A DNA stretch of 63,360 nucleotides from Acidithiobacillus sp. HP-2 (GTDB lineage Bacteria > Pseudomonadota > Gammaproteobacteria > Acidithiobacillales > Acidithiobacillaceae), in contig NZ_JACKZA010000017.1 of the NCBI RefSeq assembly GCF_015100155.1, positions 1-63,360 on the forward strand, in the 5' to 3' direction. Below are positions 19,396 to 41,079 of this stretch, piece by piece. A program made the translations under genes and the position numbers. Each line of letters opens with the position of its first letter. Positions within the stretch are counted from its first letter, which is position 1. The notes below the pieces were generated by a model. That model ran no database searches, was not told the DNA's origin, and saw nothing but the letters and a program-made list of their open reading frames with translations.

Positions 19396-22300
19396 TCACC
19401 CACCATCAATCGGTATATCATCATCACCAACCGCTTCTCCTGGATTTTTCAGTGGCTCGTTCAACCGATATTCATCTGCACTCAGATTCCTGTCGAGATC
19501 TTTTAACGCAGCTTCGCCATGGCCTTCCATAAGCTCTTTAACCATGTTCAGGTCATTTGTTGCTGCTTCTCCAGGGGATTCAGGAACGCCATCTGATGCC
19601 GGGGGCTTGTAATTCCCGGTCAACCTCGCATGCGTGTCTGACGGTTCCATCGGGTCACGCATACCCGGTTTAGCAGATTTGGGGCCATCTCCAGCATCCT
19701 TTGCCGCTTTTGCATCTTTCATGCGCTGTAACGCCTTCCTGCCGCCATAAACCGCTGCACCAGTAGCGGCAGCTCCTACTGCCGCAGCACCGCCCATAGC
19801 CAGTGCCGGATGGTCCTCTATTTCTTTTGCCACTTCCATCAGCGCGTTGCCGTTCATACCCGCTTTGTCTTGGGCGAGTTTTTTGTTGAACGCCGCAACA
19901 TTCAGCCCAAAACCTTTGGCGATGCTATCGGCATAACTGGTATCTGGCGCAGATGGCTGATAATCCGCATTCGGATTGGTTTCGTTATAACGCCCTTGTG
20001 CTCCCGCTTGAATGGCTGCTGACTGTGCCGCGTTGCCTGCTGCATTGGCCGGGGGGGTTGCCGCATCTACCTGCTGCTGCAGTGCAGCCCCCGGTTTAGG
20101 CATTGTGGCCCCTTTCGCCATCCCTTCCTGAACCGCCGCACCGGTTTTGGCCTGATTCCCTGCTGAGGCAAAGCGATTCAGGGTGTCATTCCAGAAATTA
20201 CCGGCGGCCTGGTACTGGCCCTGGGCCAGCGCACCATTAACCGTCATCAGATTCGCTACCGCTGCGGCAGCATTAGGATTCAAATTTTGGCTCGCCGCAT
20301 TGTAGGCGCGGTTCCAGGCGTTCTCTAACCCGTTTTGCTCTGCGTAGTGTCTGGACATCATGACGGCATCTCCCAGGCCACTGGGTTTGTTTTTGTCATA
20401 GTTGGCCATCATGCCTTCCATGGTGCCCATATTTACCGCATCACTGCCTGCTACACTGTTCGACGCATTAACCATGCGGGAGAGGCTATTGGCCCGTTTG
20501 CGGGCCGCTGTCGCATTTCGGGTATCCTGGCCAGATAGTGCTGCATCATGGGTCATGGAAGCAGACGCCGTTCTGCCCGCTGTGGTTTCTGAGCCTGTAG
20601 CAATGGAATGCAGTAATTTGGCGTTTTTGGATGAAGTTACACTGTCAGCCAGCTTGCGATTTGATGTCTTCTGCAGAGCGTGTTGGATTTTAGCAACTTC
20701 GCCCGCATCGGCACTTACGCCCACATTGGCACTTTTAATAGCGTTCGCAATACCTGCTGCACCCTTTTCCCCCGCAAACGCACTGGCCCCCAGTCCCATG
20801 AAATCTGCACCAAACTGACCTTTCATCGCGGCAGAAACTGCCACGGCCTGTTCCGCCGTCATGTTCCATTGGTTCCCAAGTTCCTGGCTTTCCTGCTTCA
20901 TTTGCGAAAGCCCATGATCTGCGTTGGTGTTGTGCTTTAAGTAGCTTTTTACACCTGTTTCGCTACTATTGGCGTACTGGAATCCGGTCTTCCAGGCATT
21001 TGCGCTGGCCGCCATCGCGCTTTGTGTGTAGGCGGCTTCCTGCTGTTGGGCTTCCTGAATGGCGGAACTCATTTGCGAGCCCACATTGACAGACAACCCC
21101 GCATAAGCCGGGCTCATCCCAGCGATTCCTGAAGACCCTCTACCCGTGTAGCCGACACCTGTGGTGTTCTGCTGAACCCCCGCAACCCCCTGACTGAGTG
21201 TATCCGTGCCCTCCATCGGTGTCGTTTCCCCAATGGCTTTTGAGGCAGAACTTTCCTCGCTCTGATCCTGTGCCAGTCGTGTGGCGGCATAAGCGCCGCC
21301 CAAACCCAGCAGGACCATCGTGACTACCGGCGTCAAGGCCAGCATCTTGTCCGCCATCGCCTGTTGACGCATGGCATGTTCCAGCAGGATCGGGATGTTA
21401 TGGGATGCCGTGATATTCCCCCCGTTTAGAGTGCCGACGAGCCGCGACATGGTTTGGTGCATGTTGCTCTGGGCATAATTCGAGATAATCTGGGCAATCG
21501 GTATCCAGGCCAGTGTCGTCGCTCCGAACGCCATGAATGCTCCGATCTTGCCGAATCCGTTTGGCCCCATCGCCATAGCCACCACAATGATGATCGGAAA
21601 GCCCGCAAAGAACAGGAATTGCAGGATCGCCATCATCGGAATCATGTTCATTTCAAACAGGGAAGCATTCGCCGCATTCAGGGTCACACTCCGTCCGAAT
21701 GCGGTCGCCTTGGTCGAGCAATAGCTCGACATCTGGTTTGTAGGGCCGCTGCTGTCCCAGTAGAAATTCGCGTTGGCTCCGGCTTCCACTGCACAATTCA
21801 GGATCATGTTGTTCATGAAGTCGTAACCGGTGTTGCCCGTTTTCATGAAAACGTCATCCAGCAGTGAATTTGCTTGGGACGCTTTCAGGCTGGCAACGGA
21901 GCCATTATCCAGTTGGGTGTCAATGGTTTCACCCAGGTTTTCATTACCACTGGGCATGGACCCGGACTCGAAAACTTCCCAGGCGCTTTTCAGGGTACTG
22001 GCGGCTTTGGAACAGGTTTCATTGTAGTGAGCCACAGGTTGGGCGGAACTATTGACGAAGAGGGTGTCCGTGAGATTAGGCTTGGGTGGCGTCGTTGCGA
22101 ACAATGTTGTCGCCAGATCCTTTTGTGAACCCATCGTATAAAGCAGGCTTGTATCCGGAGCTTCACAAAAGTCCACATAATTCACGATGGAGTGATTCAG
22201 CGCCGGATTCATACTGGAAAATGTCGAATACAGCCCGCGCAGGTTATACATGAGTGCCAGGGGGCCATCGAAACCATAGACCTGATTGGATGTCGGATCG

Positions 22301-22743
22301 CCAGAGGAGTTTACGCTGAACATATTGGTATCGGCACCTGAACCAACTACGCCATCCGCCTGCTCCATTTGCGTGGTGATTGCCCAAAAAACCGATGAAA
22401 AGATTGAAGCGGGTACCGCGACACCGATAGGGATACCAGGCACAATCTGCGACTCACCGTTATAGATGTTCTCTATATTGACCTGAGTAGTAACCCCGAA
22501 GAGCACCGCATACGCAATCGCCATGATCATAATGTGATGAATCAGGAATCGCCCCTGCATGAAAGACGCGACCACGATAATAATCAAGCTGATGATGAGC
22601 ATGAGGCCGATCAGCGGCCCGCCCCAGGCACTGCCGTTGGTCGCCCAGGCCGTGTTGTTGCCGGGATCGAACAACATCTGCAGCATGGTGAACACGCCAA
22701 AAAAACTCTTGATGTTGCCGATAACATAAATGTTCCAAGTCAT
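19396..22743 (-). CDS. traG: F-type conjugation protein TraG (mating-pair stabilisation)
   Basis: The 1115-residue product resembles F-plasmid TraG in layout. Its N-terminal 480 residues contain membrane helices (about 43-65, 68-90, 370-395, 400-425, 465-490) and the conserved IPIGVAVPASIFSSVFWAIT stretch; the rest is a long Ala/Gln/Asn-rich soluble domain predicted to reach the periplasm. TraG stabilises mating pairs and takes part in entry exclusion. It overlaps TraH by ATGA. The C-terminal 150 residues carry an additional hydrophobic segment. Confidence 0.8.
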   Translation of the reverse strand: MTWNIYVIGNIKSFFGVFTMLQMLFDPGNNTAWATNGSAWGGPLIGLMLIISLIIIVVASFMQGRFLIHHIMIMAIAYAVLFGVTTQVNIENIYNGESQIVPGIPIGVAVPASIFSSVFWAITTQMEQADGVVGSGADTNMFSVNSSGDPTSNQVYGFDGPLALMYNLRGLYSTFSSMNPALNHSIVNYVDFCEAPDTSLLYTMGSQKDLATTLFATTPPKPNLTDTLFVNSSAQPVAHYNETCSKAASTLKSAWEVFESGSMPSGNENLGETIDTQLDNGSVASLKASQANSLLDDVFMKTGNTGYDFMNNMILNCAVEAGANANFYWDSSGPTNQMSSYCSTKATAFGRSVTLNAANASLFEMNMIPMMAILQFLFFAGFPIIIVVAMAMGPNGFGKIGAFMAFGATTLAWIPIAQIISNYAQSNMHQTMSRLVGTLNGGNITASHNIPILLEHAMRQQAMADKMLALTPVVTMVLLGLGGAYAATRLAQDQSEESSASKAIGETTPMEGTDTLSQGVAGVQQNTTGVGYTGRGSSGIAGMSPAYAGLSVNVGSQMSSAIQEAQQQEAAYTQSAMAASANAWKTGFQYANSSETGVKSYLKHNTNADHGLSQMKQESQELGNQWNMTAEQAVAVSAAMKGQFGADFMGLGASAFAGEKGAAGIANAIKSANVGVSADAGEVAKIQHALQKTSNRKLADSVTSSKNAKLLHSIATGSETTAGRTASASMTHDAALSGQDTRNATAARKRANSLSRMVNASNSVAGSDAVNMGTMEGMMANYDKNKPSGLGDAVMMSRHYAEQNGLENAWNRAYNAASQNLNPNAAAAVANLMTVNGALAQGQYQAAGNFWNDTLNRFASAGNQAKTGAAVQEGMAKGATMPKPGAALQQQVDAATPPANAAGNAAQSAAIQAGAQGRYNETNPNADYQPSAPDTSYADSIAKGFGLNVAAFNKKLAQDKAGMNGNALMEVAKEIEDHPALAMGGAAAVGAAATGAAVYGGRKALQRMKDAKAAKDAGDGPKSAKPGMRDPMEPSDTHARLTGNYKPPASDGVPESPGEAATNDLNMVKELMEGHGEAALKDLDRNLSADEYRLNEPLKNPGEAVGDDDIPIDGG

Positions 22744-24368
22744 CAGAGGTTCCCGTGTTCTTTTTTCAGTGTGTTGTGCAATCCCCGAACCAGAGCTTCG
22801 GCATTCAGGATTTTTTGTGCATCCGAGTTTTCGTCACGCATATAGACATCTTCGCTCTGAGCAAGCTGGTTGATGGCCGACCCGTAGGATTTCGGGATGA
22901 CGACATGGGGATTTCCGGAGTAAACGCTCTGTTCTGCACCCAGCAGTGCGGATGCCATATTCACGGCATACAGATTCACTGCCACTGGCTCCATCAATGC
23001 CAGGACTTCATTGACCATATTTTGAGAGCTTTGTGCCTGCCGGAGTAAGGTGTACATGCCCCCCGGCATGGTTTGCAGGAACTGGATTTGTTCCGTGGAT
23101 AATGAGGTTCCGTCTTCGATGTCTGGCCCGATTCCTGGGTCGTCATTTGGCCCACCCCCGAAGAGCATGTGTTGAATATGCGGCTTGATGCCCTCGAAGC
23201 CCATGGAACCCAAGGTGGTGCCACGAGTCTCCACGGCTTCGCAGCCCATGGTGGTGGAATAGGCGGAATATTTTTGACTATTTGTGGGCCACGGTTCGCA
23301 GGTCATCACGGAAGCGTTCTTGGTGCCATTGACCAGATCTTGCAGGGTGAGCGTGGGCGCTGCCGTATCTGGACTCTGGGAGTAGGCGGCATTGGGAGTG
23401 GCCTGCGTGCTGCTTTCCTGTTCGGCATTCTGATCCGCATTGGCGGTTGTGCTGGAACCGGGGTGCAGGATCTCTGTACCGACCAGAGACATGAGGATTT
23501 CCTTGGTACAGGCGTGATCGTGATTTTTACAGGGCAGGGACGTGTTGGTAGAGGGGTCATCTATGCCTTCCAGCATATTGTAAGCCTCACTGCCGCCAAT
23601 CGCTTTCCAGAACATATTGCCTTCGGGGATCAGCGAGGCAGCCGAGACACTTTTAGTCTTCGAGTTTTTAACAACGGATCCACTGGAAGTGATCGTATCC
23701 CAGGACTTTTCGATGTTGGTCTTGAACGTATCCAGAACATTCTGCAGCACGCCTTCATGATTGGCGGAATCATAAGCAGAGGATACGTCCGTAGAGGCAC
23801 CTGAGCTGAATCCAAAAACTTTTTCGGCATTCTTCCCGACCTGTTTGAAATCTCCGGCTATATCCCCGGCATTAAAAATGCCGTGGGCCAGTTGGCAGGT
23901 GTTGTGCAGGGAGTTATTCATGGCCTGAATGGTTTTCTCGATAGAAGCGAGTAAAGCCCCGCACTGATGGCACATGGCATCAATCGCCAACTGGAAAGCA
24001 TACCCCAGGGCTTCCTGGCCGATAGTCCGGAGTAATGCCAGGAACTCCTGGCCATTGATGAAATGAAAGGAACCCATGTAAAGGTTGATTCCCCCACATC
24101 CTGCGGAGATGTCGGGTGGACTGAAGCTGACGATATTGGCTCCAGAAAGCGGCGTCCGGACTTCGGCATACCCACCGGAGAGGGTAACGCCATTGCCGAG
24201 ACTGGCCGCCTGGGGAACGGACGTGGCCGCAAACATGCCGCTTAAAAAGCCCTGCATTCCGGCATAGGCAGCCTCGGACTGCAACATACTGGTCGTAACC
24301 AATGATGCTGTCATGGCCAGCAGTACGCCTTTGGAAATCTTCTTTTTGAATGGTTCTGTCTTTGCCAT
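22743..24368 (-). CDS. traH: F-type conjugation protein TraH
   Basis: From ATG 24368 (AGAGGATAAACAC upstream) the 541-residue product has a signal peptide, then the TraH hallmark SFSPPDISAGCGGINLYMGS, FHFINGQEFLALLRTIGQEA and CHQCGALLASI. TraH is a periplasmic/outer-membrane-associated pilus assembly protein of F-type type IV secretion systems. The gene order F-H-G is the same as on F. Paired cysteines in the central part suggest disulfides formed with help from the thioredoxin-fold TraF. Confidence 0.88.
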   Translation of the reverse strand: MAKTEPFKKKISKGVLLAMTASLVTTSMLQSEAAYAGMQGFLSGMFAATSVPQAASLGNGVTLSGGYAEVRTPLSGANIVSFSPPDISAGCGGINLYMGSFHFINGQEFLALLRTIGQEALGYAFQLAIDAMCHQCGALLASIEKTIQAMNNSLHNTCQLAHGIFNAGDIAGDFKQVGKNAEKVFGFSSGASTDVSSAYDSANHEGVLQNVLDTFKTNIEKSWDTITSSGSVVKNSKTKSVSAASLIPEGNMFWKAIGGSEAYNMLEGIDDPSTNTSLPCKNHDHACTKEILMSLVGTEILHPGSSTTANADQNAEQESSTQATPNAAYSQSPDTAAPTLTLQDLVNGTKNASVMTCEPWPTNSQKYSAYSTTMGCEAVETRGTTLGSMGFEGIKPHIQHMLFGGGPNDDPGIGPDIEDGTSLSTEQIQFLQTMPGGMYTLLRQAQSSQNMVNEVLALMEPVAVNLYAVNMASALLGAEQSVYSGNPHVVIPKSYGSAINQLAQSEDVYMRDENSDAQKILNAEALVRGLHNTLKKEHGNL

Positions 24369-24379
24369 GTGTTTATCCT

Positions 24380-25339
24380 CTACCAATTCTTTGCCCTTGC
24401 CGCCGTCTGCATTTCGACATACCGGCTGATGGCCTTGGGGTTTGTGATGCCGGCCTTGGCCGCTGCGTGGATTTCTTGGGTGGTCAGCACGCCGCGTTCG
24501 TAGGCGTTTTCCGACCACTCCGACATTTTCTTGGGAAGCAGGTGCAGATAGCTGGCGTCGGCCAGCAGGTTTTGCTCCAGGCTCGCCATGACCTGATACC
24601 CCTGGGAAATAATGGCGAAGTTGTCCGGGGGGTAAACCATGACGATGGAGGGGGTTTCGACCAGGTGCAGGAGCTTGGCCTGACCGTGATCCCGAACAAA
24701 GACCGCGTTTTTCGGAATGTCAGATACGGGACCATCGCTGGCGTCGATATAAATCGTCTTGAAATGGGCCTGCTGTAACAGATGCCGGTATTGCCGAAGC
24801 TGCAAATTGCAGAACGGGCAGTCGTGCTTCACGAAAACCCACATCCCCACATGATGCGTGAGATATTGCAGGGCATGTTGCTTGTTCCAGGCGATGTAGG
24901 TATTGAACTCGCTGTTGGCGGCGTTGGATCGCGGCACGAAATTGGAGTAGTTCAGGACCGGGTTGGTGTTGGCCACCCGCACGAACTTTTCGGCAAAGTT
25001 CTGGGCCTTGTCGAACATGACTTTCTGCACGGAAAGATACTGGGTGACGTTCTTCGTGCTGGGATTGTTAATAGCCGCATCCCGGAGCTTGGGTAACTCG
25101 ACGCGAATCCACTGCACCGACAGGGGTGGTGGCGCTTTCTTTTTGGGTTTTAGGGGCTTTGGCTTGGCGACGACCGGCTTGGGAATCGGCTTGGGCACGA
25201 TCTTGGGCTTTGGCGGCGGGGGAGGGGGAAGCTGGTACCAGAACCAGCCGTGTTCGGCAACGGCCTGTCCTGCCCAGAGCAAGCAGGCTGTTGTGACCAA
25301 TCCGCGTAAGATACGGGCTTTAATGTTTGCCTCCTTCAA
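24380..25339 (-). CDS. traF: F-type conjugation protein TraF, thioredoxin fold
   Basis: The 319-residue product has a signal peptide (cut after AVA, about residue 28), a Pro/Lys-rich linker and a C-terminal thioredoxin-like domain with the active-site motif CPFC near residue 176 (WVFVKHDCPFCNLQLRQY). TraF assists pilus assembly and disulfide chemistry in the periplasm. Unlike F TraF, which lacks the CxxC, this one retains it. It overlaps the transglycosylase gene by 20 bases. Confidence 0.85.
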   Translation of the reverse strand: MKEANIKARILRGLVTTACLLWAGQAVAEHGWFWYQLPPPPPPKPKIVPKPIPKPVVAKPKPLKPKKKAPPPLSVQWIRVELPKLRDAAINNPSTKNVTQYLSVQKVMFDKAQNFAEKFVRVANTNPVLNYSNFVPRSNAANSEFNTYIAWNKQHALQYLTHHVGMWVFVKHDCPFCNLQLRQYRHLLQQAHFKTIYIDASDGPVSDIPKNAVFVRDHGQAKLLHLVETPSIVMVYPPDNFAIISQGYQVMASLEQNLLADASYLHLLPKKMSEWSENAYERGVLTTQEIHAAAKAGITNPKAISRYVEMQTAARAKNW

Positions 25340-25937: not shown

Positions 25938-26156
25938 ATGAAAGCGCACGTTAGCACTGCAAGCGGTAAAGCCAACATCTACCAGGACGAAACTGGGGTT
26001 CATCTCCGAATTTTTGAAACCACCGGGACAGTCTGGGAAGCAGGATTCTTCCCGGCGGCATCCTACGATGAAGTCTCTAAGGCGTGGGAAAGCGCATTGT
26101 CGCTTGCCCGTGAAATCATCAATCCCGCAACTGCCAATTTTGGCACTCGTCACTAG
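25938..26156 (+). CDS. hypothetical 72-residue protein
   Basis: From ATG 25938 behind CTCAAGGAG the product is MKAHVSTASGKANIYQDETG with a beta-rich body and a helical end (YDEVSKAWESALSLAREI). No family recognised. First gene of a two-gene cassette with the DUF3150 gene. Confidence 0.6.
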   Translation: MKAHVSTASGKANIYQDETGVHLRIFETTGTVWEAGFFPAASYDEVSKAWESALSLAREIINPATANFGTRH

Positions 26157-26166
26157 GAGGTGGATT

Positions 26167-27144
26167 ATGAAGACCATAGTTTTTTTACCGGAATTTCGAT
26201 CCATCTCCGGGTCACGGTCTTTACCGCGTGACCTGATTGAATCTCGTGACGGCAGGGATCTGGATAAGGTGCTAGCCAGCTCTGGCACCATTCAGATCCT
26301 TCCCAGAGAAGCCGTCAGGGTTTTCGGAACTGCGCGGAAGGCCATCGAGACAACCTTGCTCGCTAAGGGGACAAGGTTCTTCGGCGGATTCCTCGTTTCA
26401 GAGGAAAATGCAGGAGATGTCCAAAAATCCCTGGAGAAAATCCAGAGCGCAGTCTTGGAGGCGAGGTCAAAACTGGCCAATAATCTTCCACGGATTCTGG
26501 AAGATCGGATCGCTGAGGCTCCCGAATGGGAGGATGTGATCCGGAAATCTGCTCCTTCTCAAGCGGACATCGAGGAGTCCGTCAGCTTTGGCTGGATCAA
26601 AACTCCAGTCAACCTGGCGGATCCGGAGATCAAACAGGTGCTAAAGGGAAACCCCCTGCACATAAAAATAGCCAAGGAGATGTCCCAAATGGCCAGTACC
26701 TATCTGGGGCGGCCTTTAGGATCCGGAAAGCGTGGTATTCCGGGTCTTGGGACGCTGAAGGCTATCCAGGCCAAAGCACGCGCCTTGGCGTTCCTTGATG
26801 GTCGTTTCAGCGGCCTAGATGAAGCGATAAAGGTGATAATTGATGGTACAGGATCCGGTGGCCCTGCTGCTGGAATGACGGTCTTGGGCGTGCTCAAGGT
26901 GTTGAGCGACCCCAAGGCTGTTTTGGAGTTCGATTCTGAGGAGGCCGGCGCGTTGTTGCCCGAAGAAACAGAATCTCCAGTAGCAGCGGTTTCTGATCCA
27001 GCTCCGGACGTTCAATCTGTAGAGGATCCGGAACCCGACTCAGCTATTGAAGCGGCTGAAGAGGACAATGATATGGAAGATGAACATCCGTCTTTCATTC
27101 CGCAGCCTGCCAAGACCAGTCGTATCCCAGACTGGACCTTTTAA
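26167..27144 (+). CDS. DUF3150-like protein
   Basis: The 325-residue product has the features I associate with DUF3150: an N-terminal region with SSGTIQILPREAVRVFGTAR and KGTRFFGGFLVSEENAGDV, a helical centre, and an acidic tail (DSAIEAAEEDNDMEDEHPSF). DUF3150 genes often lie near CobS/CobT-like AAA and VWA genes on plasmids and ICEs; here a VWA gene with the same upstream element is found at 48298-49800. ATG 26167 follows AGGAGGTGGATT. Function unknown. Confidence 0.6.
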   Translation: MKTIVFLPEFRSISGSRSLPRDLIESRDGRDLDKVLASSGTIQILPREAVRVFGTARKAIETTLLAKGTRFFGGFLVSEENAGDVQKSLEKIQSAVLEARSKLANNLPRILEDRIAEAPEWEDVIRKSAPSQADIEESVSFGWIKTPVNLADPEIKQVLKGNPLHIKIAKEMSQMASTYLGRPLGSGKRGIPGLGTLKAIQAKARALAFLDGRFSGLDEAIKVIIDGTGSGGPAAGMTVLGVLKVLSDPKAVLEFDSEEAGALLPEETESPVAAVSDPAPDVQSVEDPEPDSAIEAAEEDNDMEDEHPSFIPQPAKTSRIPDWTF

Positions 27145-27678: not shown

Positions 27679-28518
27679 CTATCGTTTCCACCCGCGATTG
27701 CGGATCTCCAGAGCCAGTTTCAGGTTCCTCTTTGCCCCGGACTCTCCCTGACTCCAGCGCCGAATACTTCGTGGGCTCACGCCCATAATATCCGCCAGGT
27801 ATTTGCTGAAAGCCACGGCATCCTTGCCCGTGCTCTGGCAACCGTCTTCAATCAGCTCCGGCCAGGTCCATGGCCGGGATTCCTGTTGTATCCGGATGGC
27901 CTGCATGACCCGATGATGATGCTCCACGGACAGTTCGCCTTTCCGGTACAGAATCTCACGCAAACGGCTTGGGGTGATATGCAGGTAATGACAGACCTCT
28001 TTTTGCGTCCATCCCGTTATCTGGATCAGCTCGCGCAATCGGTCGGCTGATTCCGTCGCGTTTGGACCGCGCATTGCTGTGGCCGCCGATCCGCGCTCGA
28101 TGCGTTTTTCTGGCTGCGAATCCGGATCAGACCAGGAACTTAGAGCCCCGCGCAAACGCTGCATTGCCGCTTCCTTTTCAGATTCACGCAAATGGAGATT
28201 TTCAGCTTGTGCCACCCTTTCCAGGGGATCATCTGACTCCGCGCCTGCAGGTTCCGGCATGGCTTCCGGTGGCATGGTTCTGAGATACCAGTGGACCGAA
28301 GATTTCTGGATGCTCTCCACCTTTAGACGAACCAGTGTCTTGATTCGGTCCCCGGTGATTTCTTCTTCCGGCATTTGCAGTAAAGCCATACAGACTTCCT
28401 GCACGGCTTCGTCCTGCAAATCTTCACTAACTGGCATTCCATACTTACGCCGACGAAAATAAAAGTGTTTTGCGACCTGCTGTTTAATCCGATCTACGTC
28501 GGTTATGTCAAAGGGCAT
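27679..28518 (-). CDS. sigma-like regulator with two C-terminal HTH domains
   Basis: From ATG 28518 the 279-residue product starts MPFDITDVDRIKQQVAKHFY and SEDLQDEAVQEVCMALLQ, similar in pattern to sigma-70 region 2 (helical, acidic DLQDEAVQEV). Further on, QITGWTQKEVCHYLHITPSR is a helix-turn-helix and FSKYLADIMGVSPRSIRRWS a second one. This could be a transcription factor specific for the element. It overlaps the HD/TraI-like gene by 11 bases and is last in its transcript. The sigma similarity is my reading of pattern only. Confidence 0.55.
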   Translation of the reverse strand: MPFDITDVDRIKQQVAKHFYFRRRKYGMPVSEDLQDEAVQEVCMALLQMPEEEITGDRIKTLVRLKVESIQKSSVHWYLRTMPPEAMPEPAGAESDDPLERVAQAENLHLRESEKEAAMQRLRGALSSWSDPDSQPEKRIERGSAATAMRGPNATESADRLRELIQITGWTQKEVCHYLHITPSRLREILYRKGELSVEHHHRVMQAIRIQQESRPWTWPELIEDGCQSTGKDAVAFSKYLADIMGVSPRSIRRWSQGESGAKRNLKLALEIRNRGWKR

Positions 28519-30922
28519 CGGCATCCTCGCTGGATTCGGCAGGAGCGATAAAGTTGCTGGACTGCATATCCACTTTCCCCTCCAGATCCGTAACAATCTT
28601 TAATATCATCCGTACTTCCATCAAAAGATAAGAGCCAGGAGCAAGCGCAGACAAGGTTTCCGTAACAAGGGTTTTAGCTTCCCCCGGCGGATCCAGATCA
28701 AGAAGGGGCTGAACATAACCACGGTATTGTTGCTGGCCAGAGCCTTCCGCCAAACGTGCATCTCTCTGGATTTCGTCCAGCCAAACCATGGAGAAAAGCA
28801 ATCTTTTCCGTTTCTTGTCCGGTATCTCCGGGAGTATTTGAGGGTAAGTATTCAGCAGGTCACGGACGCGCTGTCTGACCGTGGCGACCCGTTGTTCGGG
28901 AGTTTGCATAATGGGGTTAATCATCCTGTTATGGCTGTGTTGCTGTTCTGCCTTGCGCCTTGCGGCCTGTATTTCCTGTAGCCGACGTTCCCGGCTGTCT
29001 GCATCCAGTGTTGCCGGCGCAGCAGGACGTGTTTCCGGCTCTGTTACGGGTTCTTGAGAGGGTTCCACCGGAGAAGGGTCTGTATCTTCTGTGCGGGGGA
29101 ATGCTGGGCTTTCTACAGGTGTGCATCCCCAAAGACTTTCTCCCTCATCCGGCGGGAGATCATCCGAATCATCCTGAGAAGCCGTATCCGGCTGTGTCTC
29201 TCCGGCGAAAGGGTCTGCATCATCGGCATCATCCTGATCTTCTGTCCGCTGATCCGGAGTTCGTTGCTGTTCCTGGTCTTGCTCCGTTGATGGCTCGACC
29301 TGGGTGGTTTCCGGAGACTCAGCCGGTTCAGAATCGGCATCCTGCGCGGATGTGTCCTGCTTCTGCGACCCTGTTTCCTCTGCTTCCGAGGACTCTTCCG
29401 GTTTCTTGAAATACTGCGGCCAGGTTGGAGAGGCAACCCCCAGCTTGGCCCGGTAGTCTTCAAGTTCCGCGAACCGGGAGAACAGGTCGCTTCCATCTAT
29501 CCGGACTAGGTAGTAAGGGATTTTCTCCTCGACTTCACTGGCTTCGCCATCCTTCGTGGTTCCCTCAATCGTTAGATAAAAGCCAGCACCTTCCGGTTTC
29601 TTGCAACTTTTGGTTTCGGGGTATCCATAATCTTTTTTCAGAATGCCTTGTTCATCGAGTTTGGCGGAAATGATTTTGATGATCGGACCCGGATTCCCGT
29701 TGTTGTCGGCAACGTAGTCCGCCCGCGTGAGCCCAAGATGGGCACATATCTGGGCGCGTATCCGCTTTTCCGCCAGGAAAACCAGATTGCCCTGTTTGTA
29801 TCCGATACGCTGTTCCGGGCTTTTGTGGTTGATCAGGTTGGTATGGGAAAGCAGGTACAGGAACGATTCCCAGATTTGTTCTTCCATTTTCCTTTCCGGA
29901 AGATCATTGCTGTCCTGGTAGTCGTTCGCCACTTCGTCTGCACGGCCTTCAATCTGGCCGGCGACCAGATCCGCCTTGCGAATCGCCTGCATCAGATCCA
30001 CCACAGCTTCATCGGTCTGGATAAAGTTTCTTTTGTATCCAGAACCGGGATAGGCGTAGGCGTGATGATAAAAACAGATGGATTGCGTCAACATGCGCTG
30101 CAGAAAGTTGTCATGCTGCCCATGACTATCCATCAGCTCCCAAAAGGCATCCAGTCTGGCCAGCAGGCGGCTGCCCTCGATGTCGTGCAGGCCGACGACC
30201 TCAATGTTCTCCCCGTCCCTCCGAAAACAGAGTACCTTGCCTATGTCATGGGCCATGCCTGCAAGGATGGCGGTTTCCCGATCAAAGGATTTACTGGAAG
30301 CCTTTCCGCCTGCGCGTACCGCCTCGATCCCGGCCTGGTCCATCTCGGCCCAACCACGGGCCATGGCCGCCGCTACACGCAGGCTATGTTCCAGCAATGA
30401 CGCATCCCCGTGGGATCCGTGATAGGGCGAAGCGGGCAGGCCAGATTCTTCCAGAATCCCATAAATGGCCCAGAACAGTTCTGTTCTGGGGTTATTATGC
30501 TGCAGGGCGAATTGCCGTAATGCCGGTTTATCCAGTTGTGTTTCTGCTTTGTCGCGTTGAAACCTGGCGATGGCCGCATCCAGTTGTGCGGCCCTTTTCT
30601 TGTGGGGAATGGGGGATTGCGGGGCCGTGATGCCGCTGGATCGGGGCAACATCCCGATGGTTGTGGTGCTTAATCCGCGCCGTGATTGCGGGCGCAATCC
30701 GAGTGTGACCGCAAAAACTTCTGCCGCTTCCCAGAACAGCAGCAAGGCAATGGCGGCAAATATGCAAGCCAATACCCAGAGGATACGATCCAGAAGGAAG
30801 GGCAGGTTGTCAGAAAAGGTGTGGCTGAAAAAGAAAAACGACACCCCCAACGCCACCAGGGTCCAGAATCCCACGACGGTTGCCGTGGCAGAGATCAGGC
30901 GTCGATGAACGGGTACGGCCAC
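28508..30922 (-). CDS. membrane-anchored HD-domain protein, MobH/TraI-like relaxase candidate
   Basis: The 804-residue product starts at GTG 30922 behind AGAGGGGAAATT. Two membrane helices (about 10-33 and 42-70) precede an HD domain with LLEHSLRVAAAMARGW near residue 175, GMAHDIGKVL near 222 and FYHHAYAYPG near 285, as in MobH relaxases and the TraI_2 family. A Gln/Glu/Pro-rich acidic linker (about 500-630) and a C-terminal helical domain follow. MobH relaxases nick oriT; here membrane anchoring is unusual. Context (TraD, RHH, tra genes) supports a conjugation role. Confidence 0.65.
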   Translation of the reverse strand: MAVPVHRRLISATATVVGFWTLVALGVSFFFFSHTFSDNLPFLLDRILWVLACIFAAIALLLFWEAAEVFAVTLGLRPQSRRGLSTTTIGMLPRSSGITAPQSPIPHKKRAAQLDAAIARFQRDKAETQLDKPALRQFALQHNNPRTELFWAIYGILEESGLPASPYHGSHGDASLLEHSLRVAAAMARGWAEMDQAGIEAVRAGGKASSKSFDRETAILAGMAHDIGKVLCFRRDGENIEVVGLHDIEGSRLLARLDAFWELMDSHGQHDNFLQRMLTQSICFYHHAYAYPGSGYKRNFIQTDEAVVDLMQAIRKADLVAGQIEGRADEVANDYQDSNDLPERKMEEQIWESFLYLLSHTNLINHKSPEQRIGYKQGNLVFLAEKRIRAQICAHLGLTRADYVADNNGNPGPIIKIISAKLDEQGILKKDYGYPETKSCKKPEGAGFYLTIEGTTKDGEASEVEEKIPYYLVRIDGSDLFSRFAELEDYRAKLGVASPTWPQYFKKPEESSEAEETGSQKQDTSAQDADSEPAESPETTQVEPSTEQDQEQQRTPDQRTEDQDDADDADPFAGETQPDTASQDDSDDLPPDEGESLWGCTPVESPAFPRTEDTDPSPVEPSQEPVTEPETRPAAPATLDADSRERRLQEIQAARRKAEQQHSHNRMINPIMQTPEQRVATVRQRVRDLLNTYPQILPEIPDKKRKRLLFSMVWLDEIQRDARLAEGSGQQQYRGYVQPLLDLDPPGEAKTLVTETLSALAPGSYLLMEVRMILKIVTDLEGKVDMQSSNFIAPAESSEDADAL

Positions 30923-32560: not shown

Positions 32561-34456
32561 CTATGCTTTCCGCCGCCGCGCGTTCCCCTTGTTGGATTCT
32601 TCACCTTGCTGCGTATCGCCCGCCTGCGGATCTTTATCTTTCTTGGGGGGTGGAGCCTTGGGGAACTGGGACTTGATGTATTCCTCGTCGGCCTTGATGA
32701 CGGCATCCATGCGGTCCATCAGCCCGTAATCGCTGCGATAGGGCCGTGGGCGTTTGGGGACTTCCGGTGCCCAGATCCGGAATGGTCCCGCCCATTTTTT
32801 GAACTCCGGGGAGAAATTCAGCAGGGGTACCCGAATGTGGTAATAGTGCTTGCCATTGCGGGTGAACAGGCATTCGCCTTTATCCAGTGCTTTCAGATCA
32901 TCAGCGGATACGCGATACATCTCCTGTTCCCGCTCGCCATAAGCCGTGCCTGCGCCGCCGGACGCGGCTCCGCTGCCTGCCAGATCCGTAGAGGCTTCAC
33001 TGGCCGAATCTGAAGAGGATTCATTCAGGGTTCGCAAGACCGCCAAATGCTTACCGATGAAATCCGCACCATATTCCGCCGAGTCCTGATCGCCCAGGCC
33101 AAAGAACATCTTGTTGGCACAGTTGCCGACCACCTTATTGAACAGGTTATCCGAAATGGTATCGAGGTTCCCCTTGGTTTGCGGAGAGAGCACGATTCTT
33201 TGTCGGGCAGATCGGGCCTGTTCAAAGATGCGATCCCAGTTCTCAGAGATATACGAGCCCGGTTCATCCAGAAACACCAGCGTACTGGGGCGCGGCCTGC
33301 GCTCTTCCGGCATGGTCTGTATCCAGGACAATGCCGTGCGGTAATCCCCGATAAACAGCTTGGCAAAGTCCGAGGCAGTTTCTTCCTTGCCCATGGTGGG
33401 CAGGGGCACATAAACGATTTTGTTCTGTGTGAGGCACTCAAAGATGCTGATGTCGGGCTTGGTGGTGTTCACCACTTCACCAAACTTGCCTGATCCCATC
33501 ATTCCCAGGCGGCCACCGATGCCGCCGAACAGATCCTTGACCTTATCCACGTTGATCATCGTGCCGCCAGCCTTGTTGGGCACCCGGAAGCGGTTGATGA
33601 ATAGGGCGACCGTTCGGCCCTCCGACGTTCCCCGTATCCCCGGAAGATTCGGGAGCTTGTCGAGTTCGGTGGGGCTATTCAACAAGAGTGACAGATCGGC
33701 TGCCGTGTACGCATATCCACCCCGCTGCAGGGCGGCTATGACGGCCATGAGCGCCTGTGTTGCGGACTTGCGGTAGTAGTCTGCACCTGCATTGCCCGTG
33801 GCCAGAGGGACCGTAGCCATGATGCGTGAGGCGACTTCATCGGCGTCACCAAACAGCAACGGATTGTAACGGTTGCTGATGGACGGATCACCGGGATGGA
33901 TAATCACCAGATCGTGCTCGCGCCCTGTATATTTCAGCAGGTTCCAGAGATTTGAGATGTTTTTTTCGTCTATTTTCCCGTCGGCAAAAAGGATCCCGCC
34001 GCCGTTGATGAGCTGTTGATACATGAGAAAATTGGCGGCAACGGTTTTGCCCATGCCGGACATGCCGAGAATGGCCATGTGATCATTGGATGGATCGGCT
34101 TCCCGAAAGCCTGCAGAGGATACGAGCGGCATCCAGAATGGTTGGCCAGAGTTGGTGATATAGCCCAGCAAGGCCGAATCCGGGGGCTGATCTTCCGGGT
34201 TGACCGGGAAAATGGGATCGGCGGAATCTATTTCCAGATTGGAATCGAGGATATGACGACCATTGTGATACCACTCGACGATGCGCTTACTCAGATGCAG
34301 GGTACCCACTGCCGCCAGACTGCCAGCGGCCACTTTCCAGTCGATATTCAGCGTTCCTGGGACGTAAGGCCCACAGGCCCAGGCCGCTGACCCCAAAGCC
34401 AGCATGGATAAGGCGTCATTGGATCCACCGAACTTGAGCTTTACACGGTCTGCCAT
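32561..34456 (-). CDS. traD: type IV coupling protein TraD-like ATPase
   Basis: From ATG 34456 the 631-residue product has an N-terminal hydrophobic stretch (about 15-50), Walker A in ILGMSGMGKTVAANF near residue 140, and Walker B in STLVFLDEPGSYIS near residue 395, with the RIVLSPQTKGNL motif after it: the VirD4/TraD family that links the relaxosome to the type IV channel. The C-terminal tail is Lys/Pro-rich and may contact the relaxase. It lies directly upstream of the RHH/TraI operon. Confidence 0.88.
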   Translation of the reverse strand: MADRVKLKFGGSNDALSMLALGSAAWACGPYVPGTLNIDWKVAAGSLAAVGTLHLSKRIVEWYHNGRHILDSNLEIDSADPIFPVNPEDQPPDSALLGYITNSGQPFWMPLVSSAGFREADPSNDHMAILGMSGMGKTVAANFLMYQQLINGGGILFADGKIDEKNISNLWNLLKYTGREHDLVIIHPGDPSISNRYNPLLFGDADEVASRIMATVPLATGNAGADYYRKSATQALMAVIAALQRGGYAYTAADLSLLLNSPTELDKLPNLPGIRGTSEGRTVALFINRFRVPNKAGGTMINVDKVKDLFGGIGGRLGMMGSGKFGEVVNTTKPDISIFECLTQNKIVYVPLPTMGKEETASDFAKLFIGDYRTALSWIQTMPEERRPRPSTLVFLDEPGSYISENWDRIFEQARSARQRIVLSPQTKGNLDTISDNLFNKVVGNCANKMFFGLGDQDSAEYGADFIGKHLAVLRTLNESSSDSASEASTDLAGSGAASGGAGTAYGEREQEMYRVSADDLKALDKGECLFTRNGKHYYHIRVPLLNFSPEFKKWAGPFRIWAPEVPKRPRPYRSDYGLMDRMDAVIKADEEYIKSQFPKAPPPKKDKDPQAGDTQQGEESNKGNARRRKA

Positions 34457-34480
34457 CCCAAAAATCCTCTGCAGAAAAAA

Positions 34481-34508
34481 GAAAAACCCCAAAGCCGAAG
34501 CTGTGGGG
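34481..34508 (-). terminator. TTCG-loop terminator
   Basis: On the minus strand CCCCACAGC-TTCG-GCTTTGGGG then TTTTTC, ending the SSB cassette just upstream of traD. Confidence 0.85.
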
Positions 34509-34580: not shown

Positions 34581-35015
34581 TCAAAAAGGAATATCGTCAT
34601 CAAAATCATCTTCCGCAGGAGGCGGAGTATTTTCGGCTGGAGCCTTGTGAGAGGCCTGGGAATTGCCTGATTCCTGAGAATCAGATTTCCCACCAACAAG
34701 CTGCAGCCGATCACCCACAATTTCTGTGGTGTAACGATCCTGACCTTCCTTATCGGTCCACTTGCGGGTCTGCAGACGGCCTTCAACGTAAGCCATACTG
34801 CCTTTACGCAGGTATTCGCCAGCAACTTCGGCAGTACGCCCAAACAGCACCGCACGATGCCATTCAGTGCGTTCTACTTTGTTACCGTCCTTATCCTTGA
34901 AGTTTTCGGATGTCGCAATACTAAGATTGGCTACAGCCTTACCAGCAGGGGTATAACGAATTTCCGGATCCTGACCCAACCGACCCATGATAATTACTTT
35001 ATTAACTCCACTCAT
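34581..35015 (-). CDS. ssb: single-stranded DNA-binding protein
   Basis: The 144-residue product is a standard [57 protein letters not shown] and the acidic tip DDDIPF that binds partner proteins. Plasmid SSBs protect the incoming strand during transfer. It has its own cassette element, long leader and terminator. Confidence 0.95.
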
Positions 35016-35035
35016 GACACTCTCCTTATTGAGAA

Positions 35036-35268: not shown

Positions 35269-36270
35269 TCAGAGATTGTCCACCAAATCCGAGAGACTTC
35301 CCGATGGTGGAAGTCCCTCATCGTCCTCTTCGGTTTCCTGCGATTCGTTTACCGCGTGATCCAGAGGATCCTGGGCGGTGTGAGCCGCTTTATCATCTTG
35401 TGCATCCTGCGCGGATTCGGTATCCGTGGACGCGCTCGATGCGGCTTCCGGATTTCGGTAGCGGTCCATGATTTCGTTAATCCACGGTGGAATTGACAGA
35501 ATATCCACGCCACGGCGGGCATTGAGAATGGTCCGGCACCAGATGTACCCGACCTGCTCACCTGTCGGCACTTCCAGCCCATCTTCGTCGATCCGCTTGA
35601 GATCCCGCGCACGCAGCTTGCCATCCACCAGGATAGGCCGGCCCATACGCAGTTCACGACGCACGGACTGGGCAATGGCCGCATTGACCATTCGCACTGG
35701 AATCAGTGCGTTGGGATTGCTTGTCAGTCGCACCCAGACTTCGACGCCGATGACGGTGTTATTATGCTCGTGCAGAATGGATTGCACCCGGTCCACAATA
35801 CCTGCGATCTTGACCCGGTTAGCCCCTTCCCGAAGGGTGGTTTCTCGATGACTGCCCTCTGCCAGCGCAAAGGGATTGAAGTCATCGGTTTTCGTTTCCT
35901 TCCGATTCTGTATGGCGTCTGACCAGGCCAGGGAAGTCGGCATTTCAATCACTGAAGGCGAGGACACATCCAGTGGATCCAGATAAGCGTGATAGTCCGT
36001 GACATCCTGCCTGCCATTGTTCCAGACGATTTTTCGGGATCGAATTCTGCCGATCAGCTTCACTGGCTGCTCGTTGCTGATGTTCAATCTACGGGAACTC
36101 CGGTGTTCAATGGGCACCATGCGGGAAATATCCCGCGTCTGCTGTATTTTTCCGCGCAAAGCCCCTGAATCGGTACGCTTGAAGTCACGGGCATAACCGC
36201 TGACATAACCGATATTCAAAAACCCTTTTTCATAGCCATATTGTGAGAGACTGCTATTTACAAGCGACAT
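35269..36270 (-). CDS. unknown protein cotranscribed with topoisomerase-like gene
   Basis: From ATG 36270 the 333-residue product starts MSLVNSSLSQYGYEKGFLNI. The middle has two beta-rich segments (VKLIGRIRSRKIVWNNGR and VKIAGIVDRVQSI) that could be OB-like, and the C-terminal 70 residues are acidic and unstructured, as in SSB-type proteins. Five bases separate it from the topoisomerase-like gene. A single-strand DNA-binding role is a guess from composition and neighbours. Confidence 0.5.
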   Translation of the reverse strand: MSLVNSSLSQYGYEKGFLNIGYVSGYARDFKRTDSGALRGKIQQTRDISRMVPIEHRSSRRLNISNEQPVKLIGRIRSRKIVWNNGRQDVTDYHAYLDPLDVSSPSVIEMPTSLAWSDAIQNRKETKTDDFNPFALAEGSHRETTLREGANRVKIAGIVDRVQSILHEHNNTVIGVEVWVRLTSNPNALIPVRMVNAAIAQSVRRELRMGRPILVDGKLRARDLKRIDEDGLEVPTGEQVGYIWCRTILNARRGVDILSIPPWINEIMDRYRNPEAASSASTDTESAQDAQDDKAAHTAQDPLDHAVNESQETEEDDEGLPPSGSLSDLVDNL

Positions 36271-36274: not shown

Positions 36275-37480
36275 CTATCCTTTCCCCAATAGGGAAACCA
36301 GGTCAACGACATACTTTTCCGCCCACGAGCGAAACGCCAGGAGCCGGGTTTCCAGCTCAGTTTCCTCATCTTTTTCGCCATGACTCAGGCGATCCAAGGC
36401 CTGCGTCCATAGCACCGTCATTCCCAGATCAGTAAGGGATTCGGGTAATTTCTGATAAATGGTCTGACCCAGGGGTGTCAGGTTCATGGTGGCGGGGTCC
36501 ACCCATCCCTGACGAATCAGTTGAGTAAAATGGTTCATGCGGCCTCGCGCAGAACCCAACTGGATATTTCGTGCGGCCAATTTCAGGGCATCGTCCTGCA
36601 CCCAAGGACTGACATCCCGCAAGGATTCGAGCCAGTCAGCAAGGGGATGCTGCGGGCTGTTTTCCCTGGAACCTGATCCATGAAATGCGGCATAAACCGG
36701 ATCGGATGGTGCGGTAGGGTATTGTTCCAGAGTGGTTATTTTTCCTGATGTGATGAACGGATAGGTGATTTGGCCACGTTCCCAGGCACGGGCAAGCTGT
36801 ATCAGTGCATCCTCCGGGGGAAAATCAAATCCGCGCAGGATTCTGGCTTGCAAGATGGCCGTATCCATTCCAGATTCGGTTTGCCGGGATAGGCCCGTTT
36901 CATTTACAGGGAATGTAGAAAGCATGGCGCTCAATACCCGCCCGACAGGGATGGCGGTCGCTACCCGTCTGGAAAGCGTCATGGCGCGTGATCCGTTCAG
37001 GCCAATGATCCAGTCGGCATGAACCCGTAATTTTTCAACCTGCACCCAATGCGCCACGTCCTTGCGTGGGTGTGCAATGGCCCGCACCAGGTCTTCATCC
37101 CGTAAGGACGTGGTATCCCAGATCGTGACTGGGCCATTAAAACCCGCATAATCGAGAAGTAACTGCAGGTCCATCAACCCGGCGGGATCCGGGGGAGGGG
37201 CGAGGATTACCCGGTCGCAGCGCATGATGGCGGATTTGTATTCGCGGATTCTTTCGGTAGTACCGGATCTAGGTCGGAACCGGGGTTCCGGCAGCAAGGG
37301 CAGGTCTTCGGCTCGCCATTTATCCCACTTGAGATGGTATTCCTTGGGGCTGGCGTGCCGAAACAGGGCACCGCCGGTCGCTATAACCTTCGGGTGATAA
37401 CTGGACGTGCTCGACAGCACTCGCCGCAGGGCGAGAGCCATTCCGGGGGTCGCTGTGAGGACAAGGACAATAGGTTGCAT
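36275..37480 (-). CDS. degenerate topoisomerase III (type IA) homologue
   Basis: The product (about 401 residues) shows type IA landmarks in order: ATGGALFRHASPKEYHLKW and KWRAEDLPLLPEPRF (as in TopB), VHADWIIGLNGSRAMTLSRR, IPVGRVLSAML, and QITYPFITS with the position of the catalytic Tyr. But the TOPRIM acidic residues are gone: the usual EKPS is TATPG and the usual DPDREG is PPDPAG. The protein is also much shorter than TopB (about 650 residues), lacking most of domain II. The catalytic Tyr is retained. It may bind DNA without metal-dependent religation. Confidence 0.7.
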   Translation of the reverse strand: MQPIVLVLTATPGMALALRRVLSSTSSYHPKVIATGGALFRHASPKEYHLKWDKWRAEDLPLLPEPRFRPRSGTTERIREYKSAIMRCDRVILAPPPDPAGLMDLQLLLDYAGFNGPVTIWDTTSLRDEDLVRAIAHPRKDVAHWVQVEKLRVHADWIIGLNGSRAMTLSRRVATAIPVGRVLSAMLSTFPVNETGLSRQTESGMDTAILQARILRGFDFPPEDALIQLARAWERGQITYPFITSGKITTLEQYPTAPSDPVYAAFHGSGSRENSPQHPLADWLESLRDVSPWVQDDALKLAARNIQLGSARGRMNHFTQLIRQGWVDPATMNLTPLGQTIYQKLPESLTDLGMTVLWTQALDRLSHGEKDEETELETRLLAFRSWAEKYVVDLVSLLGKG

Positions 37481-37641: not shown

Positions 37642-38295
37642 ATGGAAAATCAGAATCAGAAATTGTTTGGAGCCTTATTACAGGCTCAAAAGGCTTTCAG
37701 CGCCGTTCGCAAGGATGGCAAGAACCCGATGTACAAATCGCAATACGCGACCTTGGATTCCGTGCTGGATGCGGTTCGTCAGCCTTTGCTGGATGCGGGG
37801 ATTCTGCTCATGCAGCCCCCGGTTGATACCGGTGAACGGTTAGAAAAGCCCTGCGCCACTGTAAGAACCACTTTGATTCATGCTGAATCGGGTGAATCGC
37901 TGGAAGTGGTGACAAGCATCCCCTTGGCCAAGAACGACGCACAGGGTTACGGCAGCGCAGTAACATACGCCCGCCGCTATGCGCTTATGGGTCTTTTGGG
38001 CATCGCTCCAGAAGATGATGACGGTAATGCCGCATCTTCTTCTGCTGGCAATGCAGGTCGTCAGCAGGTTCAACGGCCACGTCAGCAGCAGAATCAGCAG
38101 GCTGCGGCAACATCTTCCGAGAAAAAGGAAGCTGCCAAAGCTGGTCCATCGCTGGAATCAGCCTTGGAAAAGGTCAAGAAGTCTCCAGTCGAAAAACTGG
38201 ACTTCGCAGAACAGTGGTGCCGGATGAATTTCACCGGCGATGATTTGAAGGCCTTGGAAAAGGCCATCGCTGAACGGCGCTCTGCTGCTGCTTAA
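37642..38295 (+). CDS. ERF-family single-strand annealing recombinase
   Basis: The 217-residue product has the ERF pattern: LFGALLQAQKAFSAVRKDG, KNPMYKSQYATLDSVLDAVR and DAQGYGSAVTYARRYALMGLLG. ERF proteins anneal complementary single strands, like phage P22 Erf and lambda Bet. A Gln-rich linker leads to a small C-terminal helical domain. With the YqaJ exonuclease at 40183-41079 it makes a Red-type recombination pair. Confidence 0.92.
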   Translation: MENQNQKLFGALLQAQKAFSAVRKDGKNPMYKSQYATLDSVLDAVRQPLLDAGILLMQPPVDTGERLEKPCATVRTTLIHAESGESLEVVTSIPLAKNDAQGYGSAVTYARRYALMGLLGIAPEDDDGNAASSSAGNAGRQQVQRPRQQQNQQAAATSSEKKEAAKAGPSLESALEKVKKSPVEKLDFAEQWCRMNFTGDDLKALEKAIAERRSAAA

Positions 38296-40076: not shown

Positions 40077-40105
40077 CCCCACGCCTTGTGCCTGGGGTTT
40101 TTCTT
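40077..40105 (+). terminator. cassette terminator
   Basis: CCCCACGCCTTGTGCCTGGGG followed by TTTTTC; same position and stem ends as the others but the loop is TTGT. Confidence 0.75.
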
Positions 40106-40115
40106 TGTCCTTTGC

Positions 40116-40141
40116 CTGCCCATCCATAGATTTTGTCCAGC
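40116..40141 (+). promoter_or_regulatory. cassette element, copy 7 (GA variant)
   Basis: Core at 40123-40139; exonuclease start 43 bases downstream. CTTGTTGTTG can pair with CAAACTCAAG (7 of 10), which includes the ribosome site's first bases. Confidence 0.75.
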
Positions 40142-40182
40142 CTCTTGTTGTTGGTACTCACTCAAACTCAAGGAGATTGGTC

Positions 40183-41079
40183 ATGAATGTCATTACATTG
40201 GAACAAAATACGTCAGAATGGTTGGATTGGAGAAAGGGCGGTCTGGGTGGATCCGATGCGCCCATTATCATGGGGGTTTCACCATTCAAAAAGCCCTATA
40301 CCCTGTTTACAGAAAAAACGGGCATCACTAAACCGGCAACACCCCATCCCGCCGCAGCCGCAGCTATGCAGCGCGGGCATGATCTGGAACCGGTTGCTCG
40401 TGATCTGGTCTGCAGCATCACCAAGGAGTTTTTTTCTCCTATTTGTGGCGAACACGAGAATCACTCTTGGATGCGGCTGTCTGCAGATGGGATCTCTATG
40501 GATGGCAGTACGCTCCTGGAGATTAAATGCCCCGGACAAAAGGACTGGGAAGTAGCCCAATCCGGAAAGGTTCCAGAAAAGTATGTGGGCCAAATCCAGC
40601 ACGCTTTTGCAGTGAGCGGGGCAGAAAAGCTGTTGTATGCCACTTATCGACCTGAAGAAGCGGAAAATCCGATCATCCTTGAGGTTTTCCCCGATAAGGA
40701 TTACCAGCAACGCTTAATCGAGCGAGAGCAGGCCTTTTGGCAGGCTGTCCAGGCGGAAGACTGGACCATCTTTGATGGGTTGGTGTCAGACGCATTGCCA
40801 TCCGGCTTTGCCGAGGCTGCTGCGGAATGGGTCGATTTTCAGGAGATGATGGAGAGTTTCAAGGCCAATGAGAAGAAATTGCGCGAAAAGCTCTTGTCAT
40901 TTCTTCCCAAAACCGGAGAAGGCTGTATCAAAGGGGCAGGGATTGAAGTCTCCCGCAAAAATACGAAGGGATCCGTCGATTATCCCCGATTGTTAAAAGA
41001 TCTGGATGTTACAGAATCCGTTGTGGATAGCTACCGCAAGGCGGATAGCACACGCGAGACTGTCCGCAAAGCATCCTGA
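40183..41079 (+). CDS. YqaJ/lambda-exonuclease-type nuclease
   Basis: The 298-residue product has the YqaJ fold signature: EWLDWRKGGLGGSDAPIIMG, RGHDLEPVARDL, and the catalytic MDGS...LLEIKCPGQ (Glu-x-Lys). Such 5'-3' exonucleases make single-strand tails for the annealing protein; ERF lies in a separate cassette 2 kb upstream. The C-terminal 80 residues are helical. ATG 40183 follows CTCAAGGAGATTGGTC. Confidence 0.92.
   Translation: MNVITLEQNTSEWLDWRKGGLGGSDAPIIMGVSPFKKPYTLFTEKTGITKPATPHPAAAAAMQRGHDLEPVARDLVCSITKEFFSPICGEHENHSWMRLSADGISMDGSTLLEIKCPGQKDWEVAQSGKVPEKYVGQIQHAFAVSGAEKLLYATYRPEEAENPIILEVFPDKDYQQRLIEREQAFWQAVQAEDWTIFDGLVSDALPSGFAEAAAEWVDFQEMMESFKANEKKLREKLLSFLPKTGEGCIKGAGIEVSRKNTKGSVDYPRLLKDLDVTESVVDSYRKADSTRETVRKAS

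Follow-up and report, generated by a model that had tools for sequence, protein, structure and literature searches.

The window analysed here, a 63,360-nucleotide stretch of DNA from Acidithiobacillus sp. HP-2, encodes a 401-amino-acid protein, T, and next to it a 333-amino-acid partner, N (Table 1). By sequence, T is a descendant of topoisomerase III (TopB) with a conserved partner, and it is not a TopB by the features that define the function of that enzyme. An initial sequence-only reading had proposed either a DNA-binding or strand-capture factor or a nicking protein that works without TOPRIM. Because four of six named groove residues are kept in all five distinct T proteins, the catalytic positions are lost, and glutamate mutants of related enzymes bind DNA uncut, the first of these proposals fits best. 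We therefore lean towards the view that T is a non-cutting holder of single-stranded DNA (ssDNA) that would act with N on the DNA of the element, probably in transfer or repair.

Table 1. Genes of the window considered in this study, with window coordinates.
Feature	Coordinates	Strand	Basis or remark
F-type transfer genes TraG (19396-22743), TraH (22743-24518), TraF (24380-25339)	19396..25339	-	
HD-domain protein, possibly MobH-type relaxase (weak)	28508..30922	-	Pfam HD 26.6 of 22 bits; MobH NF041494 16.2 of 200 bits, E=0.0037
TraD/VirD4-like coupling protein	32561..34492	-	Pfam TrwB_AAD_bind 33.9 of 20.5 bits; TraG-D_C 29.4 of 22
ssb, ends DDDIPF; next gene after N, same direction	34581..35015	-	Pfam SSB E=1.4e-39 on 34581-35027; start at MSG
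N, 333-aa partner	35269..36270	-	Start 4 bases past the T stop codon
T, 401-aa TopB-derived protein	36275..37480	-	Tyr is Y240; remaining Asp of DxD is D98; Phe for Arg is F242
ERF-family single-strand annealing protein, divergent neighbour of T	37642..38295	+	Pfam ERF E=3.8e-29
YqaJ/lambda-type exonuclease, start codon uncertain	40105..41079	+	Pfam YqaJ E=2.3e-24; TIGR03033 E=2.1e-38

Catalytic and groove residues of T

The reading frame of T is intact over its 401 codons on the minus strand, and the TopB-like landmarks quoted in the sequence-only reading are present. TopB models match the protein in two stretches (NF005829, E=1.5e-24; TIGR01056, E=7.3e-22), yet the scores lie far below the curated NCBIfam cut-offs (86.7 of 597 bits and 77.6 of 515.75 bits, respectively, about one seventh of the membership score). 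Since the E-values are small and the scores so far under these cut-offs, T is, as judged from its sequence, homologous to TopB beyond chance and abnormal as a TopB. Against Pfam PF01131 it scores 40.5 bits, just above the cut-off of 35.1. In PADLOC, T matches only the topoisomerase-like start of the DpdF model (E=1e-6 for the window protein and 9e-20 for the T of L009:970-2331); the DpdF model itself seems to contain a topoisomerase-like part. A promoter scan gave four hits where 2.6 were expected, which is about chance.

Residues of T were mapped on the numbering of E. coli TopB, with E. coli TopB and TopA as yardsticks, for five distinct T proteins from six Acidithiobacillus genomes (window, A. 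concretivorus, A. marinus, A. ferruginosus and G014, listed below in that order). In the window protein, E7 is replaced by A10, K8 by T11, D103 by P96, E107 by A100, R330 by F242 and D332 by T244. Across the five proteins the residues are A/A/A/S/Q at E7, Thr throughout at K8, P/P/P/S/A at D103, A/A/P/G/A at E107 and T/N/N/N/R at D332. The arginine two residues past the catalytic tyrosine, R330, is Phe in all five, and the domain III histidine, H381, falls in a gap in four and is retained in one. All 25 reference type IA enzymes carry E7, D103, E107, Y328, R330, D332 and H381, and D105 is Gly in three of them. These references come from a 36-protein residue table from which seven rows were left out (L021, L022, L024, L025, L027, L032 and L033); five of the seven look intact, L033 is in the wrong frame, and L032, a truncated row, shows K/T at E7/K8. 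The losses are common to the homologues, and the claim that T is without the TOPRIM acidic residues holds for E7, D103 and E107. It does not hold for the second Asp of the DxD motif (D105, D98 of T), which all five proteins retain, as they do the catalytic tyrosine (Y328, Y240 of T).

Section 5 of a review on these enzymes (PMC7587558) names six contacts of E. coli TopI with the cleaved strand, R168, D172, G194, R195, Q197 and R507. The first four correspond to R165, D169, G196 and R197 of E. coli TopB and are retained in all five T proteins. The other two, Q199 and R538 (E. coli TopI Q197 and R507), are not retained, and Q199 is also absent from two of the 25 references. Because the catalytic positions are replaced and four of the six strand contacts are kept in five of five proteins, most of the chemistry is, by this comparison, gone from T and much of the groove, though not all of it, is left. 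Twenty T-invariant positions are common to at least 80% of the references. Twelve positions are invariant in T and found in at most 10% of the 25 other type IA enzymes (T9, T11, G13, R41, H42, E149, H154 and F242 among them), which points to new constraint that arose in T.

The observation that a large part of TopB is missing was borne out in the three T proteins compared for this purpose (window, A. concretivorus and A. marinus), which have no counterpart of E. coli TopB residues 214-281, 352-385, 393-401, 406-433, 439-481 and 607-653 (apart from 623-625) and lack the C-terminus of that enzyme. Residues 214-281 and most of 352-481 we take to be the arch (domain II) and the second half of domain III. 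An AlphaFold model of T built from five sequences has a mean pLDDT of 63 and a pTM of 0.59, with residues 40-70 and 153-201 under 50; the latter stretch contains most of the groove residues. As the sequence-only reading had suggested checking, the model was superposed on known structures, which gave alignments with E. coli TopIII (1d6m; Z 20.0 over 361 residues, rmsd 5.1, across chain 1-609) and E. coli TopI (1cy6; Z 20.3 over 346 residues, rmsd 4.4, across chain 2-582). These two enzymes are its best structural matches (Foldseek E-values as low as 4.8e-10). The model also resembles a 415-aa protein recorded as 'DNA topoisomerase' from an uncultured Caudovirales phage (BFVD A0A6J5S849; E=5.4e-5, TM 0.45/0.44).

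The catalytic glutamate bears directly on whether T could cut. According to section 18 of PMC6101483, Glu to Ala or Gln mutants of M. tuberculosis and M. smegmatis TopI and the E. coli E9Q mutant show no cleavage, and ssDNA binding by the M. tuberculosis mutants is unchanged; the same section mentions an older conflicting report of cleavage by E. coli E9Q. Cleavage by T is thus unlikely, because its Glu is replaced by Ala, Ser or Gln, and T is therefore taken as an ssDNA holder acting with N. The proposal of a nicking protein without TOPRIM fares poorly for the same reason and with the loss of K8, of the Arg near the Tyr and, in four of the five proteins, of the domain III His.

Against a purely passive binder, however, D98 and Y240 are still invariant and are not obviously needed for binding. 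Both would have a use if T kept a one-way chemistry, in which Y240 attacks ssDNA once and stays bound, with Phe (F242) in place of Arg and with D98 or N aiding the metal. An aromatic residue in place of this Arg allows metal-dependent cleavage and blocks religation in E. coli and Yersinia TopI, as described in a passage of PMC7587558, and an Arg to Trp change self-traps human TOP3A according to PMC10079683; T has the aromatic Phe in all five proteins. We nonetheless regard such self-trapping as very improbable, given that, in the three enzymes tested, cleavage depends on the Glu that is replaced in T (PMC6101483, section 18) and that the first Asp, K8 and, in four of five proteins, the domain III His are also gone. 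Thus T resembles the self-trapping mutants E. coli TopI R321W and human TOP3A R364W in the aromatic residue that replaces the Arg near the Tyr, but unlike them it is also without the catalytic Glu, the first Asp and the arch.

Distribution, constraint and origin of T

T is found in six of 17 genomes of the genus (profile scores of 528-692 bits; best other match 118 bits), and none of the six loci has an internal stop. For the pair formed by the window and A. concretivorus, dN/dS is 0.175 for T, with regional values of 0.10-0.33, and 0.142 for N. This is the only unsaturated pair for T; the other between-species T pairs had dS above 1.5 or were saturated and were left out. The A. ferruginosus/A. 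ferrivorans pair gives 0.066 for N, from few changes. A frameshift, which the sequence-only reading had considered as a possible cause of the differences from TopB, and a pseudogene are ruled out by the six loci free of stops and by the dN/dS of 0.175 in the one pair. These values also weigh against a related idea, that T is a decaying remnant kept only since N is translated from its 3' end. The start of N, 4 bases past the end of T or inside it, and the drift at catalytic positions (A/S/Q and P/S/A) would be expected of such a remnant, but the 12 new family-specific invariant positions would not, and with the intact loci and the constraint on T we find this idea scarcely credible.

At the A. 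ferruginosus and A. ferrivorans loci, T is identical over 454 codons and the adjoining N differs at about 10% of synonymous sites, which hints at a recent local exchange.

No T was detected outside the genus among 369 genomes of the class or 398 of the phylum, with at most four candidates per genome scored. In the class set 42 matched the T profile at 1e-12, the best outside the genome of origin reaching 118.8 bits against 692 for T, and in the phylum set only the genome of origin matched at 1e-34. Short open frames, such as those of G261 (285 aa) and G313 (562 aa), stand outside this conclusion. In PLSDB the window T matches one record and the window N none, and the A. ferruginosus T matches at least 5000 records, none among the matches listed covering 80% of it. 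A gene of a P. aeruginosa plasmid that matches T in one long piece was rejected as a T-like protein, being a full 714-aa TopB. A phage or viral origin of T or N was likewise rejected: no relative was confirmed in viral_contigs with T, N or a T alignment, and a phage search with the A. ferruginosus T returned 19 records, of which none covers more than 80% of the query and those annotated are TopB-like.

In trees, T forms one group (100/100 and 100/99) on long branches. Candidate parents tie in profile score (152.1 for an Allochromatium plasmid TopB and 151.9 for a TopB of the same genome), and neither trees nor profile scores point to a single parent lineage. A limited literature search found no description of T or N, of an inactive TOPRIM topoisomerase III on conjugative elements, of a type IA topoisomerase pseudoenzyme or of a 'topo mini-A' topoisomerase.

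The window genome (3.2 Mb) carries four further full-size type IA topoisomerases besides T, and a dead paralogue could compete with such enzymes for ssDNA or partners. Even so, a role for T as a dominant-negative regulator of a host or competitor TopB appears improbable to us. The draft genomes G003 and G016 match at E<=1e-6 only with T and one weaker frame, probably TopA, and therefore T seems to be without a TopB to inhibit there. Furthermore, such a role would leave the tight pairing of T with N unexplained.

The partner protein N and its plasmid relatives

The neighbour of T had been described as beta-rich with an acidic tail, and this is confirmed: the first half of N is beta-rich and conserved and its C-terminal tail is acidic. 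What the first reading missed is that N is a conserved partner with a predicted SSB-like domain that elsewhere adjoins an intact TopB. N is present in six of 29 genomes of the family, the same six as T, and adjoins or overlaps T in each, with a 4-base gap in three loci and overlaps of 7, 7 and 4 bases in the other three. A genome_contigs scan with two short N peptide patterns, which distant relatives can escape, returned 4 loci, all from Acidithiobacillus.

Residues ~149-252 of N are predicted to adopt an OB fold of the SSB/PriB kind (best match at Z 11.3 over 87 residues, rmsd 2.6) in a model of low confidence (mean pLDDT 45.6). A profile built from 14 N proteins matched 17 PDB sequences at E<=1, of which 16 are SSBs (best E=2.3e-5), and Pfam SSB matches three of the 14 (best 4.6e-5). 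By HHalign, N against SSB gave 84% over 30 columns, and the second half against SSB with only six close sequences gave 23%; the first half did not match SSB (0.3%), and a check for tandem OB domains gave 43% between the two halves. The window N itself matches no Pfam family at E<=1 and no NCBIfam model. Together these results predict an SSB-like OB domain in N, and the family is apparently unnamed in Pfam and NCBIfam, with weak SSB matches in few of its 14 members. A Caballeronia homologue of N (L080:5950-6996) is annotated in its record as 'single-stranded DNA-binding protein', in agreement with the OB prediction.

The N profile found two distant relatives in the 398 phylum genomes besides the genome of origin, and one of them, in G632, lies just before a full-length TopB. 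PLSDB matches numbered 30 records for the G632 protein, 18 for the other distant N and eight for the N of G014, and the plasmids that carry these distant relatives are large ones from Pseudomonas, Cupriavidus and Burkholderia. We viewed 12 N neighbourhoods, chosen non-randomly. In seven of these (Caballeronia, C. metallidurans, P. veronii, P. fungorum, B. vietnamiensis, Methylibium and Pseudomonas pSTY) N stands directly before a full-length TopB or is separated from it by one small ORF. An HD protein comes after N in Cupriavidus malaysiensis and Aromatoleum EbN1, where the TopB gene sits at another site of the plasmid. Allochromatium pAt1 has a TopB 1.7 kb upstream of N, and in pMOL30 of C. 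metallidurans CH34 (L092:4998-7562) N is fused to an HD protein. The twelfth neighbourhood is that of Stenotrophomonas, where the stretch after N is without annotation. Within the pMOL30 fusion, residues 1-177 share 86% identity with N and residues 149-854 share 91% with the HD protein, with no TopB between; its HD part is the HD protein found elsewhere beyond TopB.

Each of the eight N-bearing records searched whole has a single PF01131 match that exceeds the cut-off. In six TopBs of N-bearing plasmids (L079-L084) the Glu, the Lys, the first Asp, the last Glu and the Tyr, Arg and His are intact; the Cmal row, which is the HD protein, and the out-of-frame L076 row were left out of this residue table. 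The same six TopBs read D-x-G-R-E-G, with Gly in place of the second TOPRIM Asp, which is the opposite of what T shows. In the tree, the TopBs linked to N form two separate groups, and by this evidence N goes with the locus and not with one TopB lineage. Because N directly precedes TopB in seven of the 12 neighbourhoods, it looks like an older companion of plasmid TopB, in which case the pair persisted in Acidithiobacillus once the chemistry of TopB had gone. The N family would give bacterial plasmid TopB a candidate OB-fold partner.

Genetic context, proposed function and known systems

The gene order T, N, ssb, traD recurs in A. concretivorus, in A. marinus and, as far as the contig extends, in A. 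ferruginosus; in G014 the T-N pair is oriented opposite to ssb and traD. The HD protein of the window resembles the HD protein near N on five of seven plasmids tested. We do not call it a relaxase, because its likeness to MobH is weak and because MOB-suite assigns five of the plasmids viewed to MOBF or MOBP. An IncC plasmid, of type MOBH, carries a full TopB at a distance of one ORF from mobH-traD. DUF3150 and CobT-like proteins are encoded at 26014-27144 and 48298-49800 of the window, and DUF3150, an AAA ATPase and a VWA protein are also found near N on several distant plasmids. A further part of the window (1028-12409) is possible defence cargo, with a DrmC-like PLD nuclease (1028-1960), a PAPS-reductase/SspD/BrxP-like protein (7391-8566) and a SocA/Panacea antitoxin-like protein (11750-12409).

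We propose that T descended from the full-length TopB of a conjugative element. Its lineage would have lost the acid/base and metal residues (E7, D103 and E107), the two residues that deal with the scissile phosphate (Lys K8 and Arg R330) and the arch that forms the strand-passage hole. It would have retained the scaffold of the TOPRIM domain, some of the groove for the cleaved strand and the buried Tyr. T may then bind ssDNA in the groove without cutting it, possibly in a physical complex with N. Together with the co-translated protein N, with its predicted OB fold, and the SSB of the element, it would hold or present element ssDNA. The likeliest stage would be conjugative DNA processing at the coupling protein, or else delivery to the ERF/YqaJ annealing pair. 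Disruption of topB in ICEHin1056 lowered transfer up to 100,000-fold (PMC3739013, section 14), so an element-borne TopB can matter for transfer. Gene order and this precedent suggest a role of T in transfer; the ICEHin1056 TopB is presumably active, and its phenotype may be catalytic.

Alternatively, T and N could serve the recombination side of the element and load or protect ssDNA for annealing instead of for transfer. The ERF gene begins only 162 bases from T, the YqaJ gene is nearby, and an ERF gene is also found near T in A. concretivorus and A. marinus. In G014, however, over 10 kb separate T from the ERF homologue, yet T and N are together, and most of the distant plasmids viewed are without an annotated annealing gene within ~6 kb of N (EbN1 has a YqaJ gene nearby). 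An exclusive role in recombination thus seems unlikely.

If T is non-cutting and kept by selection, the strand-holding of TopB has been split from its chemistry in nature, and a role of TopB on conjugative elements beyond untangling becomes testable. A broader and decidedly tentative view is that T-N is a pseudo-topoisomerase complex, a TopB minus arch and cutting that retains the groove and a Tyr-Pro-Phe core and serves a conjugative element as an ssDNA holder, possibly single-turnover and self-trapping, with an SSB-like partner that in other places goes with an active plasmid TopB. The N-TopB pairs of plasmids would then be a bacterial counterpart of TOP3-RMI/TDRD3.

Compared with the TopBs of plasmids and ICEs, such as those of the IncC plasmid and ICEHin1056, T has a homologous TOPRIM scaffold, the domain IV groove motif GRV, the catalytic Tyr segment and a GT..(T/S)R-type segment, and it too is carried by conjugative elements. 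In contrast to them, it is without E7, K8, D103, E107, R330, D332 and the arch, and it has 401 aa against 639-893 aa in the plasmid TopBs compared. Similarly, residues 149-252 of N are predicted to fit the OB fold of bacterial SSB and PriB, whereas N differs from these in its doubled length, in a conserved N-terminal half rich in beta structure and in the absence of the DDIPF tip. In TOP3A-RMI1 and TOP3B-TDRD3, topoisomerase III is paired with an OB-fold partner. T-N would share this arrangement, a relative of topoisomerase III beside a predicted OB-fold protein, with the differences that the OB domain of N resembles SSB, that T by its sequence is not an active enzyme, and that T-N is known as a gene pair.
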